A DNA stretch of 64,000 nucleotides, from positions 1 to 64,000 of the forward strand of contig JABGXW010000162.1 in assembly GCA_018675575.1 (NCBI GenBank), in the 5' to 3' direction. Position numbers and translations under genes: made by a program. Origin of the DNA: Bacteriovoracaceae bacterium. Its GTDB lineage: Bacteria > Bdellovibrionota > Bacteriovoracia > Bacteriovoracales > Bacteriovoracaceae. The notes below the pieces were generated by a model, which saw nothing but the letters and a program-made list of their open reading frames with translations, was not told the DNA's origin and did no database searches. Below, one piece after another: positions 25,589 to 31,264 of the stretch; positions within the stretch are counted from its first letter, which is position 1; every line of letters begins with the position of its first letter.

Positions 25589-27073
25589 GTGACCCACATA
25601 CTATCAGTACTTATTCTTTTGACAACAATTCTCATCATCCCAAAAGCACAGGCGCTTCCCATAGATTGGCATGGAGCATTTGGAGTTGATACCACTCTTC
25701 TTGATAATTTCAGAAGGATTGAATCAACTACCGATAATAGTAATAATACAGGTCTAGAACCTGGTCTAACGTCAGGAAATCACGGCGCGGCCCATTTCGA
25801 GTCCTACATTTTTAGACTTAATCCAAATATCATTATTAATGATTCAGCCTCTTTAAAAGGTGAATTTTCTTCTGGCTACGGACGTGGTGGCTACCTTGGA
25901 GAAGCTAGTCAAACAAATTTAGAAGGATCTTTTGGAAATGCCCTCTATCATTTAAATGGTCAAGATGGAGCAAATTCAATCGTACTCAATCAATTTTACC
26001 TTCAACTTTTTTCAGACACTGCAACATATGAGATTGGTCGCCACACCACACATTGGGGACTTGGGGCGGTAGAAAATGATGGCGGAAAGCTTTGGGATCG
26101 TCATGCTTCTTCTAGAGACGGCATTACAATGAAAGTCAAAGTTGGATCTTTTTATTTTCAACCTTTCTGGTCAAAAGTAGCTCAAGGAGCTAGCTTAACC
26201 AGGGCAACTGATATTAAACAATGGGGCTTCTCACTATTATATGACAATCCAGAAAGAGATCTTTCCTTCGGTATTCTCTATTCACTTAAAGAAAATAATT
26301 CTTTTAATGCCTCCGTTGTCACCGATATAAATAATCCATCTACAACAAATCCGACCGTCGATAATACTGTCGCCATCGGTTCCGCCGACATTAAAACTAC
26401 AGATATTTACGCCAAAAAAACAATTGGAGATTTTGATGTGGCGATCGAAGTTCCCCTCATGAGTGGTGAAATTGGAAATCTTTATGGTGTTGGGCAAACG
26501 AGCTATGAAGCTAAGGCCTATATTATTGAATCAAATTATAATCTTAATGAAAGCTGGTCAATTGGTCTTGATGCTGGAATGGTATCTGGAGACAAGGGCG
26601 ATACGGGTTCTTTTGCGGCCATGTTTTTAAATCCTAATTACCAAGTTGCAAACTTTCTTTTTCGTTACAACCTAAGAGCAATCAGCGCAACAACCACAAC
26701 ACAGAGTATCTACGACTCATATGTTACTAATGCACAATACATTAAATTTAAAGCGGGATACAAAGGCGAAACGTGGGATTGGGACTTTGCTGTTCTTACG
26801 GCCACGGCACAAGAAACCGCAACAACCGGTTCAGCCGCTTATAACCACGAGGCCAACCATAGAATCTCTTCTTCAAACACAACTCAAGATGCAAATATGG
26901 GTATCGAAGTTGATATTAACTTTCGTTACAAGTGGAACAAAGAAATCTCTGTTGGTGGTGGCGTAGGGTATCTTATGACTGGTGATTATTTTACCTATAC
27001 AAATGACACCACAGTGGTAAATACTGCTTCTAATGCTCTTGCCATTCAAGTTAATACAGGTGTTAGTTTCTAA
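25589..27073 (+). CDS. Predicted outer-membrane beta-barrel protein
   Basis: 494 residues from GTG at 25589 with CGGAG upstream. Signal peptide about 1-22 (PKAQALP). The rest is a series of amphipathic strands rich in Gly, Asn, Thr and aromatics, with a conserved-looking block YEIGRHTTHWGLGAVENDGG followed by LWDRHASSRDGI, and the C-terminus ends in GVSF, the terminal aromatic typical of BAM substrates. Possibly a large porin of 16-18 strands. No homologous function recognised. Single gene with its own promoter and a strong shared terminator. Confidence 0.8.
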   Translation: MTHILSVLILLTTILIIPKAQALPIDWHGAFGVDTTLLDNFRRIESTTDNSNNTGLEPGLTSGNHGAAHFESYIFRLNPNIIINDSASLKGEFSSGYGRGGYLGEASQTNLEGSFGNALYHLNGQDGANSIVLNQFYLQLFSDTATYEIGRHTTHWGLGAVENDGGKLWDRHASSRDGITMKVKVGSFYFQPFWSKVAQGASLTRATDIKQWGFSLLYDNPERDLSFGILYSLKENNSFNASVVTDINNPSTTNPTVDNTVAIGSADIKTTDIYAKKTIGDFDVAIEVPLMSGEIGNLYGVGQTSYEAKAYIIESNYNLNESWSIGLDAGMVSGDKGDTGSFAAMFLNPNYQVANFLFRYNLRAISATTTTQSIYDSYVTNAQYIKFKAGYKGETWDWDFAVLTATAQETATTGSAAYNHEANHRISSSNTTQDANMGIEVDINFRYKWNKEISVGGGVGYLMTGDYFTYTNDTTVVNTASNALAIQVNTGVSF

Positions 27074-27147: not shown

Positions 27148-29097
27148 CTAATACCCGCGCATCATTGAATTTCCAAATGGATTAAATCCACCACCAAAGT
27201 TTTGAAATCCACCACCACCACCAAAGTTTTGAAATCCTCCTTGTGGCTGTTGCATTTGAGGAAGATTCACATAACCAGTACCCGAGTCGATACTACTACC
27301 ACCGCCCAATGAATAATAATCAGAGGAAGAAACAAACTCTTCTCCAAAGCTATATTCTGAATAATAACCCACAGGATCGTATAGTCCTGTATTCCCGGCC
27401 GATGTAGACGCCACTGTTCTTTTATATTCGTCATAATTTTCTGAGTATCTTCCAAATTTTTCTGAAGCCACACCAATTTGTCTATTATAAGCGGCCCTTC
27501 TTCTCAACGCCGTCTTTTGCGACCGCTGCGCTTTTTGTTGACATTTTTGTACTTTAAATTGTGTTCTAAACCAACCGACACAATCTTTATATTTTTCCTG
27601 AATTTTCTTCATGTCTTCTTGATATCTTTTATCTCTAGTTCTAGTAAGTGCAGCATGTCTTTTCTTTTGTGACAGCGCTGGATTCATATCACCATCTCGT
27701 GAAGATGCTTCCTGATCCCACTCGTGTAAAATTCCGTCAAACTTTTCTAAAGTTTCTGTTATTGTTTTATTAGCTGTTTTAATGGTTAATCTATCACCAC
27801 GAGAATCATCCGTTTTACCGTCTTTATACACTCTACCAAATGCATGTGATTTAAGCCTAAACCCTTCAACCATTTTTGCTTGGTCTGTATGTCCGTAATG
27901 TTTAAGAACTTCCATCACATTTTTATAACCAAGTTTTTTTGTGTTTTTTGAATACTCTTGTATCTTTTGATTATATAATTTAATCTGTTTATCTATTTCT
28001 TTTCTCTGTTCTCTACTTGGTCTTGGTGGACCTGCTCTAGTTGCTATTAATTCTTCTAATTGAATAATATAAGGAGTAAGAATATTTTTATTTAGTTTTT
28101 CTAAAAGAACGACATAATCGTCTGCGAGATCTGAAGCTTCTTCAGCATCTAAGGAAGGTTTTCCACCTGTCATTTTAAAGTCTCGCCCAATAAGCTCCAT
28201 CTCCTCATAGATCTTTTTGGCATCATCATCTAAAACCTTAGCAAGTGCTTGCTCTAGAACCTTTTTCAATAATTTATAATTTCCAACTGACTTGGGATCA
28301 AGGTTTTTCAATGCTGAAATAATTTTCTTATATTCATTTGATTTACACGCTTCATATACCGTTCTTTTTATTCTTGAGTCTGGAGAAAAGTATGCTGTGT
28401 ATTCGCCTGATTTATTAATATTTTCTTGCTTAAAGCAATGGTTATAGGCCTTGGCATTGCCAAACGCGGGACCAAATGAGCCATTATCCAGGGTTGCCGT
28501 AGGAGAAAGAAACATAACTTGTAAATCTTTGCTGGTATTGAATTCATCACCTGTAATATTTAATTCCATATACTGAGCATCTTTAAGTTTTGCTCTATCG
28601 GCATGAAAGTTCACTCCACCATTATCTCTTGTCACAACTGGTGAATCACCCTTTTGCAAACACTTTAGATACTTTTGATAGACGGTTTCATCTGTAGTTC
28701 CATGGGAGCTATTATTGTTTGCGTTTTTTGCTTTAACAAATAACTTGTTATCTTTTAATTCAAATTCAAACTCTAGATCTAAACAATTTCCATAATATTG
28801 AGGTATTTCTACTTTTAGTTTTCGTAACTCATCGTCATAACGAAATTGAAAACCTTCTTGATCTACAATTAAGTTTTGAAGCATGGACATTGGCATATAG
28901 CTGTCAGTAGAACATTCTGTCGCTTCTGTTGCATTGATAGAAACGCCATTAACTTCAGAAGGGGTACTGTTAATAACTCCTCCAGAATTTCCACTGGCCT
29001 TGGGCCGTCCAGTTACTTGCCAGCCTCCAGCTAATGAGACAGATGAATAAAGAAAGATTGAAATCATTCCAAGTTTAATCACATTTTTAGGCATCAT
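27148..29097 (-). CDS. Large secreted protein of unknown function with Gly-rich tail
   Basis: 649 residues with a signal peptide (about 1-23, cleaved after SLAGG). No known domain seen. An N-terminal half with several Cys (about 61, 104, 173, 242, 270) suggests disulphide-bonded periplasmic or exported folding; residues about 280-560 are long charged helices (KKIQEKYKDCVGWF, KVQKCQQKAQRSQ). The C-terminal 35 residues are two copies of GGFQNFGGG (27188-27237 in DNA), then NPFGNSMMRGY. AGGAA precedes the ATGATG start. A hairpin and an overlapping palindromic array lie upstream (29112-29185), suggesting tight control. Large size and helix content resemble secreted predator proteins, but this is only inference. 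Confidence 0.7.
   Translation of the reverse strand: MMPKNVIKLGMISIFLYSSVSLAGGWQVTGRPKASGNSGGVINSTPSEVNGVSINATEATECSTDSYMPMSMLQNLIVDQEGFQFRYDDELRKLKVEIPQYYGNCLDLEFEFELKDNKLFVKAKNANNNSSHGTTDETVYQKYLKCLQKGDSPVVTRDNGGVNFHADRAKLKDAQYMELNITGDEFNTSKDLQVMFLSPTATLDNGSFGPAFGNAKAYNHCFKQENINKSGEYTAYFSPDSRIKRTVYEACKSNEYKKIISALKNLDPKSVGNYKLLKKVLEQALAKVLDDDAKKIYEEMELIGRDFKMTGGKPSLDAEEASDLADDYVVLLEKLNKNILTPYIIQLEELIATRAGPPRPSREQRKEIDKQIKLYNQKIQEYSKNTKKLGYKNVMEVLKHYGHTDQAKMVEGFRLKSHAFGRVYKDGKTDDSRGDRLTIKTANKTITETLEKFDGILHEWDQEASSRDGDMNPALSQKKRHAALTRTRDKRYQEDMKKIQEKYKDCVGWFRTQFKVQKCQQKAQRSQKTALRRRAAYNRQIGVASEKFGRYSENYDEYKRTVASTSAGNTGLYDPVGYYSEYSFGEEFVSSSDYYSLGGGSSIDSGTGYVNLPQMQQPQGGFQNFGGGGGFQNFGGGFNPFGNSMMRGY
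27188..27237. repeat. Two tandem 23-bp direct repeats encoding the Gly-rich tail
   Basis: The 23-base unit starting CCACCACCAAAG and ending GAAATCC occurs at 27188-27210 and 27215-27237. In protein it encodes GGFQNFGGG twice, so it is a coding microrepeat and could vary in number between strains. Confidence 0.85.
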
Positions 29098-29111
29098 AAG
29101 TATTTCCTAAA

Positions 29112-29132
29112 ATACCAATTTCACTTTGGTAT
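29112..29132. repeat. 7-bp hairpin in the leader of the large secreted protein gene
   Basis: ATACCAA (29112-29118) and TTGGTAT (29126-29132) are perfect reverse complements around TTTCACT. It lies 15-35 bases before the ATG, so it would be in the mRNA leader, near the ribosome binding site. Confidence 0.6.
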
Positions 29133-29157
29133 CTAAATTATGGTACTTTTCTCCTTG

Positions 29158-29185
29158 ATCTTATCGGATAAGATTACGTAATCTT
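29158..29185. promoter_or_regulatory. Overlapping palindromic operator-like array
   Basis: ATCTTATC-G-GATAAGAT (29158-29174) and the perfect 16-bp palindrome AAGATTACGTAATCTT (29170-29185) share the half-site AAGAT. This sits 61-88 bases upstream of the ATG at 29097, close to the expected promoter, where it would bind a dimeric regulator at two adjacent sites. Confidence 0.7.
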
Positions 29186-29254
29186 GAGTAAAACTGATTC
29201 ATTGCTATAATTTCAGTTAAGCTTACCGTGAAACCTTATATTTATAAGCACTTA

Positions 29255-31264
29255 TTAATTCAAAAAATAGGGATCGACATCATATTTGACAGAAATAGTA
29301 TGACCTGGGTTGTGACCAGACTTTAGCGTTTTTAATAAGTTATGCAGTTGATTAATACTTGTTGATTTAAGCATCAACGCCCAGGTGAACTTATTAACTC
29401 TTTTTTCCATTAGGGCCGGTCTTGGACCAAGTAGCTTAACTTCAGAAAAATGGTTTGAGATAAGGTGCTCAATAGATTGAAACATAGATTTACTTTCTTT
29501 AATAACAAAGTTTTGGTTTTTTCCTGTTAAGTAAATCATCACCAACTTAGTATATGGAGGACTATCACATTGTTCTCGCATTTCAATTTCATTTTTATAG
29601 AAGTCTGAGAAATTATGATTTACAACATATTCAAATATTTCATTATCTGGATTAAGAGTTTGAACAATCACTTTTGAGTCCCCTCCAAATCGACCAGAGC
29701 GGCCAGAAACCTGAGTTAATTGTTGGTAAACTCTTTCGTGTGATCGATAATCTGGAAAATTTAATTGTGAATCTATTCCTAAAATTATAACGAGGTCAAC
29801 CTTTTCAAAATTATGACCCTTAGAAAGCATTTGAGTTCCAACAAGTATCTCTATTTTCCCATCATGAAATTCTCTAAGCCTTTCTTCAACTTTAGAAACT
29901 GTAGTCACCTCGTCCCTATCAAAACGCTCAATTCTTTTATCAGGAAAAATATGTTCTAAAACCTCTTTTATTTTTTCTGTACCAAAACCTTTTTGAAGCA
30001 TAGTCATGTTTCCACAAATATCACATTGATCAGGCATCACTTCCTTATAATCGCAAACATGACATTCTAAACTATGTCGCTGTTTATAAACTCTAAGGCT
30101 CGTGGAACAATTCAAGCAATCAAAGCTTTTGCCACAGGCACGGCATTGAAGATGGCCTGCAAAGCCAAGTTTATTCACAAAAACCAGTACTTGCTTATTT
30201 TTTGATAATGACTTTTCCATTTCATCAACAGACTGCTTCCTTAAAGGCCATATCTCTTGATCAATAGTCTTTTTCATTCTGATATCGATTAAGGTAATTT
30301 CTGGAAGTTTTGAATCCCCCACTCTTTCTGGCATCTTTATATATTGACTAGGATTATCTTTTTTAAAAGATTTAAATGTATCAACAGCAGGGCTCGCAGA
30401 ACCTAGCACTATAGGAATCTTTAACAAACTAGCTTTTTTAATTGCAATGTCTCTTGCATTATAAGGACAACGATCATCTTGCTTAAATGATTGATCATGC
30501 TCTTCATCAATAATAATTAAACCAAGATTTTTAATAGGAACAAAGACGCTAGACCTTACGCCAATGATAAGAACGGGTTCATTGAGTGATGCTGCCTCTT
30601 TCCAAAGCATATACTTATCAGAATTACTGATACTGCTATTATAAGAATATATTTTGCAATCTTTATCTAAATGCTTTTTAAAAAACGCCACAAACTGTAT
30701 CGTTAAATTGATCTCTGGCAATAAGTATAAAATGGTTCTATTCATCGTCAATATTTGCTTCATAAGCTCTAGGAAAACAACAGACTTGCCTGAGCCCGTA
30801 ACTCCATGAACTAGCCACTTAGAAAAACCATTATTTAATTGTGGGCAAATTTTATTTATAGCTATTTCTTGAGATTCTGAGAACAGATAGCCTGTCTCTT
30901 GCCCAAGACATGTTTCATAATTTAATGGTCTTGGCCTTTTCATGGTTTTTGGGATCGTTTCAAAAATCAAAGGCCCCATTGGATAATGATAATAATTGGA
31001 AATCCATTCATAAAAAACCAATTGCTCTTCACTTAAAAGAAGTTCATTTGAAATGACCTTCCCGATCTTCTTAACTTCAAATCCATTAGGAATAGCTATC
31101 TTTGCCTGATCAGTAGAAATCAAACACCCTTTAGTCTTTCTATTACCAAGTGGAATTTCTACAATGGTTCCATCGGCAAGAGAAAGGTCCTCCTCAGCTA
31201 TTTCATAAGTCAGTAAAGAATCACCAACAGGTAAATTTATTGCAATTTTACAAAGCTTAGTCAT
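29255..31264 (-). CDS. priA: Primosomal replication protein N' (PriA helicase)
   Basis: 669 residues, near the usual length. Superfamily 2 helicase that restarts stalled forks. Walker A GVTGSGKSVVFL, Walker B IIIDEEHDQSFK, the VLGSASPA motif and QVSGRSGRFGGDSKV motif VI are present. A zinc-binding insertion has Cys pairs in CRACGKSFDCLNCSTSL and CHVCDYKE...CDICGN. The N-terminal 3'-DNA-binding domain precedes it. It follows the secreted-protein gene at 31268 by three bases and has no Shine-Dalgarno of its own, so translation is probably coupled to that gene. Confidence 0.97.
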   Translation of the reverse strand: MTKLCKIAINLPVGDSLLTYEIAEEDLSLADGTIVEIPLGNRKTKGCLISTDQAKIAIPNGFEVKKIGKVISNELLLSEEQLVFYEWISNYYHYPMGPLIFETIPKTMKRPRPLNYETCLGQETGYLFSESQEIAINKICPQLNNGFSKWLVHGVTGSGKSVVFLELMKQILTMNRTILYLLPEINLTIQFVAFFKKHLDKDCKIYSYNSSISNSDKYMLWKEAASLNEPVLIIGVRSSVFVPIKNLGLIIIDEEHDQSFKQDDRCPYNARDIAIKKASLLKIPIVLGSASPAVDTFKSFKKDNPSQYIKMPERVGDSKLPEITLIDIRMKKTIDQEIWPLRKQSVDEMEKSLSKNKQVLVFVNKLGFAGHLQCRACGKSFDCLNCSTSLRVYKQRHSLECHVCDYKEVMPDQCDICGNMTMLQKGFGTEKIKEVLEHIFPDKRIERFDRDEVTTVSKVEERLREFHDGKIEILVGTQMLSKGHNFEKVDLVIILGIDSQLNFPDYRSHERVYQQLTQVSGRSGRFGGDSKVIVQTLNPDNEIFEYVVNHNFSDFYKNEIEMREQCDSPPYTKLVMIYLTGKNQNFVIKESKSMFQSIEHLISNHFSEVKLLGPRPALMEKRVNKFTWALMLKSTSINQLHNLLKTLKSGHNPGHTISVKYDVDPYFLN

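Follow-up and report, generated by a model that had tools for sequence, protein, structure and literature searches.

The 157-nt gap at positions 29098-29254 of the window (the whole stretch of 64,000 nucleotides that was analysed) separates priA from the gene of a 649-residue protein, with both genes lying on the minus strand. The features discussed in this work are given below in window coordinates.

27148-29097, minus strand: gene of the 649-residue protein, which is probably exported (signal-like stretch at the N-terminus, conserved cysteines and a Gly-rich tail)
29098-29154, minus strand: predicted mRNA leader, its start taken from the promoter spacing
29104-29108, minus strand: AGGAA, a Shine-Dalgarno-like sequence a short distance 5' of the ATG at 29097
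29112-29132, minus strand: weak 7-bp leader hairpin, seen as an inverted repeat (29112-29118 with 29126-29132, 7-nt loop)
29158-29174, no strand: 17-nt palindrome (8+1+8: 29158-29165 and 29167-29174) that contains the -10 box and some of the spacer
29160-29167, minus strand: putative -10 box CCGATAAG, with 0 mismatches to CCGATAAG
29160-29187, minus strand: predicted sigma-28 (FliA)-type promoter TCAAG-N15-CCGATAAG, exact to TYAAGNNT-N12-CCGAWAAG and, with N15, matching the published consensus at 10 of 11 positions
29170-29185, no strand: perfect 16-bp palindrome AAGATTACGTAATCTT (8+8: 29170-29177 and 29178-29185), extending over parts of the -35 box and the spacer
29180-29187, minus strand: putative -35 box TCAAGATT, found with the upstream regions lined up on the -10 box (TCAAG is 29187-29183)
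29255-31264, minus strand: priA, the upstream neighbour, with Pfam PriA domains

The 649-residue protein is restricted to one bacterial family: a single-sequence search detected relatives in 50 of 115 genomes belonging to that family, a profile search did so in 93 of 129 genomes sampled across the class, and the 51 matching genomes in a draw of 240 from the phylum all (51/51) belong to the same family. Of 45 complete sequences, 37 were selected for alignment, the window protein among them; the others are 18-35% identical to it, and cysteines 62, 105, 146, 221 and 251 (window numbering) are invariant. The protein is probably exported, since signal-like N-terminal stretches, as judged by eye, are seen both in the window protein and in its relatives. 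Many of the C-terminal tails (last 45 residues) in the protein and its relatives look low in complexity, with an abundance of Gly, Met, Gln, Pro or Asn, and differ in sequence. Pfam, NCBIfam, PDB profiles and AlphaFold revealed no recognisable family or structure. In particular, the Pfam and NCBIfam searches of the protein returned no match, a family search over the 37 orthologues gave 24 families, each in one or two members (best E 0.0035), the best match among PDB profiles had an E of only 0.028, and the single-sequence AlphaFold model of residues 55-500 had a mean pLDDT of 50 and was not used.

The surroundings of the gene recur in part across the family. Upstream of the gene, 37 of the 47 loci examined (the window's own among them) carry a match to priA and 7 a match to the window's 354-residue neighbour, with neither found in 3, while the gene that faces the 649-residue one from downstream was found in 42; these neighbour counts are lower bounds, because some of the fetched stretches were short or stopped at a contig end. 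The closest named relative of the window priA, 46% identical, comes from an uncultured Oligoflexia genome. The 494-residue product of the convergent gene (25589-27073) has a sub-threshold match to TIGR04551 (E 2.8e-9, 36.4 bits for a cut-off of 300); where found among the first 30 loci, it shows about 45-56% identity and is better conserved than the exported protein itself.

The initial annotation of the gap had taken two overlapping perfect palindromes that share a half-site for a cooperative regulator binding site, and had called the 16-bp one too long to be expected by chance in 157 bases. Both palindromes are indeed present, at 29158-29174 and 29170-29185, and how unexpected they are depends on what is regarded as the region searched. 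About 0.016 such palindromes are expected in 157 nt of the same composition, and the argument from length holds only if this region had been selected beforehand; it does not hold for the 64 kb that were scanned, where 5 palindromes with arms of at least 8 bp and a gap of 0 or 1 occur, versus 4.1 and 4.3 in two Markov simulations. The overlapping pair is mildly unusual, because one was seen in 1.8% of 600 simulated windows, a figure uncorrected for the variety of features that a reader might have picked out. The pair alone is not strong evidence of function.

When the upstream regions of the orthologues are placed side by side, what is kept is a pair of boxes and not the palindromes. The conserved boxes are TCAAG, TTAAG or TAAAG, followed after about 15-16 nt by CCGAWAAG or, in one genus, by CCGTTAAG, and the pair sits as a rule some 20-60 nt 5' of the ATG. 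We scored these regions against TTAAG-N16-CCGATA, a Bdellovibrio bacteriovorus consensus, over 11 positions and with both N15 and N16 allowed. At least 9 of 11 positions matched in 41 of 47 regions (window included), whereas in 100 Markov-shuffled sets the number averaged 1.68 and never exceeded 5. The orthologue counts are not independent, because some genera are represented by several genomes. Six regions scored lower: L165 (with 5), L024 and L168 (7), and L008, L021 and L030 (8); L035, L172 and L173, which have no tblastn match to the protein, had been dropped before the count of 47, and G064 was left out. Additionally, among 14 further diverged homologues, 11 reached at least 9 of 11 and 3 reached 8, where 200 shuffled sets gave a mean of 0.7 and a maximum of 4.

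The spacing of the boxes was tabulated on the 45 regions of at least 40 nt: 9 of 11 or more was reached by 27 of them at N15 and by 16 at N16, and the other spacings gave 3 (N12), 0 (N13), 2 (N14), 8 (N17, where the same sites may be counted in another register) and 0 (N18). Over both strands of the window, the promoter is one of three sites at 10 of 11, with none higher. For this looser test the background is about a tenth, since 5 of the 53 window genes have a site with at least 9 of 11 upstream.

Two further observations concern the same regions. In most of genus g15 a variant, TAAAG-N16-CCGTTA, stands upstream of the same gene, namely in L026, L027, L029, L032, L033, L034, L156, L158 and L164, with slight deviants in L031 (N15) and L030 (CCGTAA). 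Just past the -10 box of the window, near the predicted transcript start, there is an AAGGAG-like purine-rich stretch (29146-29156, minus strand), too distant from the ATG to serve as a ribosome site, which recurs at the same place in L006, L011, L012, L013, L015, L016, L018 and L022.

The palindromes do not recur upstream of the orthologues, which, so far as sequence goes, is an outcome that the initial annotation had named as counting against its reading. In the 25 orthologous promoters with an N15 spacer and at least 9 of 11 matches, to which this count was confined, a mean of 2.44 of 8 arm pairs is kept at the places of the 17-nt palindrome (slid controls 1.68-2.72) and of 2.92 of 8 at those of the 16-bp palindrome (slid controls 1.08-2.52). 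No such palindrome is present in the corresponding gap of L007, a locus of the same genus. The genome search that the initial annotation had proposed gave a similar picture: the window site itself is the only exact copy of AAGATTACGTAATCTT in the genome assembly, and with up to 3 mismatches the 16-mer has 47 places in its own genome versus 110 for the control, i.e. fewer, and the 17-mer 21 versus 14, with no clear genome-wide set of either palindrome at that tolerance. An operator regulon was rejected on these genome counts, although a lone, lineage-specific operator may exist. Within the 64-kb window there is one near match to the operator-type sequence besides the site itself.

These results bear directly on the possibility that a dimeric regulator binds both overlapping palindromes cooperatively and thereby controls the exported-protein gene. 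Such a putative operator can draw on the perfection of both palindromes and their common half-site, on the rarity of an overlapping pair in the simulations, on the position of the palindromes over the promoter, which would suit a repressor, and on the 16-bp palindrome lying slightly above all six slid controls. Nevertheless, the missing conservation, the palindrome-free gap of the same-genus locus and the genome counts speak against it, and we consider it very unlikely; the conserved element is the FliA-type promoter, and the palindromes come with neither conservation nor a clear genome-wide set. A variant in which, in one lineage, the spacer of the FliA promoter evolved into a double operator, so that a species-specific regulator lying across the -35 and -10 boxes would keep FliA polymerase from expressing the exported protein at a particular point in the life cycle, seems to us just as improbable.

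Most simply, the palindromes would result from promoter boxes and spacer that match by coincidence. In minus-strand orientation the sequence reads TCAAGATTACGTAATCTTATCCGATAAGAT, in which the -35 region contributes AAGATT and the -10 region GATAAGAT, while the spacer holds ATCTT. Six of the eight letters in one arm of the 29170-29185 palindrome are the AAGATT of the -35 box, and GATAAG of the -10 box likewise makes up six of eight in one arm of the 29158-29174 palindrome. Both palindromes can be traced to the AAGAT that the -35 (AAGATT) and -10 (GATAAG-AT) sequences have in common, together with a chance ATCTT in the unconserved spacer, which pairs with both. The case shows that a sigma-28 promoter can resemble an operator array.

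The sigma factor that such a promoter calls for is encoded in the same genome (TIGR02479, 264 bits for a cut-off of 189.6). The strict pattern TYAAGNNT-N12-CCGAWAAG, which was derived from the orthologues, has 121 exact sites in 59 genomes of the family versus 8 for a reversed-pattern control, some of the 121 being the promoter of the same gene in relatives. In the 3.7-Mb genome of the organism itself there are 5 exact sites, the window site among them, versus 1 for the control; the figures are 26 versus 9 with up to one mismatch and 154 versus 158 with up to two, where there is no enrichment. All five exact sites lie outside reading frames of at least 150 residues and face a reading frame (the shortest, of 78 residues, at L129). 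The motif is followed by the earliest possible start codon after only 9 nt at L127 and 0 nt at L128, so that either the true start must be further down or the site is no promoter. With up to one mismatch, 16 of the 26 sites are outside such frames and 10 inside. The 200 nt upstream of the five flagellin-family genes of this genome contain sites with at least 9 of 11 in three cases and with 8 in two, to be read against a background of about a tenth of genes. A separate observation is that L126 and L131 (contig C5 of the same genome, 7121-7194) form two FliA-type sites back to back, 18 bp apart and in opposite orientations, preceding exported-looking proteins of 323 and at least 487 residues, the second site with one mismatch.

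The transcript and the opposite strand were also considered as places for the element that matters. The 7-bp hairpin at 29112-29132 exists as annotated, and lying 5' of the ribosome site it might regulate or stabilise the mRNA. A stem is found in the leader of the window gene and in several orthologues, being clear and most stable in two loci of genus g24 (L017, -10.6 kcal/mol, z -1.54; L020, -10.7 kcal/mol, z -1.80), and the lowest z is -2.32 (L169). The window leader, however, folds at -8.4 kcal/mol with a z of -1.33 versus shuffles, which is not significant, the 36 leaders folded in this way have a mean z of -0.31 with only 7 below -1, and no Rfam family was matched at its gathering score (3 sub-threshold matches look like chance). 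The suggestion of a regulatory leader structure thus finds no clear family feature behind it, and control through the leader RNA is unlikely. On the plus strand, the sequence TTGAGT-16-TATAAT (29184-29211) could be an antisense sigma-70 promoter, with 10 of 12 matches and a TG ahead of the -10; but 2 promoter-like sites in 601 nt compare with 2.1 expected in shuffles, no plus-strand reading frame of at least 60 residues starts between it and 31668, and it is extremely unlikely to be what matters here.

We therefore return to the FliA (sigma-28) promoter, which, judging from the sequence, very probably drives the gene of the exported 649-residue protein (a probability of roughly 0.88). What was computed is the recurrence of boxes and spacing at the orthologues, the presence of FliA, the enrichment of the strict motif in the family and the lack of palindrome conservation; from these we infer FliA binding at the site, the start site and expression in the swimming attack phase. 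On the minus strand, the RNA polymerase with FliA would recognise TCAAG (29187-29183) and, across a spacer of 15 nt, CCGATAAG (29167-29160). Transcription would start near 29151-29154, as the promoter spacing suggests, and the leader, some 55 nt long, would finish with the AGGAA ribosome site and the ATG at 29097. This polymerase would probably transcribe the gene while the flagellar programme is on. By analogy with the FliA genes of Bdellovibrio bacteriovorus, the exported protein is probably made in the swimming, hunting attack phase, the organism itself being probably a predator. The earlier idea that the protein is tightly controlled survives to the extent that the region very probably controls the gene, and probably in a stage-specific manner, but by way of a FliA-type promoter instead of an operator array.

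This reading would place a family-restricted exported protein in a likely FliA regulon, would make it a candidate for the stage of swimming or of contact with prey, and would add another non-flagellar gene to the proposed FliA control in predators of this group. The promoter was kept while the protein diverged to 18-35% identity. Among the papers listed for Bdellovibrio FliA attack-phase promoters, Bacteriovorax with FliA and Halobacteriovorax attack-phase promoters, none has a title or an abstract opening that deals with this locus.

The flagellar class 3 promoters of enterobacteria have the consensus TAAAGTTT-N11-GCCGATAA. Against this consensus, the promoter described here has the same kind of box letters and an equal overall spacing, but TCAAG or TTAAG stands where TAAAG would be and the gene is not recognisably flagellar.

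The closer comparison is with Bdellovibrio bacteriovorus, for which one study reports TTAAG-N16-CCGATA in 92 of 140 attack-phase promoters, assigned to FliA, and attributes to FliA the control of about two thirds of the mapped attack-phase promoters (PMC3627812). According to a second study, its FliA could not be deleted and activated the flp1 and flagellin promoters in E. coli, and pilus genes of other predators in the group were proposed, from their promoter sequences, to be under the control of FliA (PMC5430801). The present organism probably belongs to another family, and its FliA promoter is predicted from sequence; the spacer, written as 16 in PMC3627812, is counted as 15 nt here. As in B. 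bacteriovorus, FliA is encoded in the genome, and two boxes of the TTAAG and CCGATA type stand ahead of the gene of a probably exported protein.
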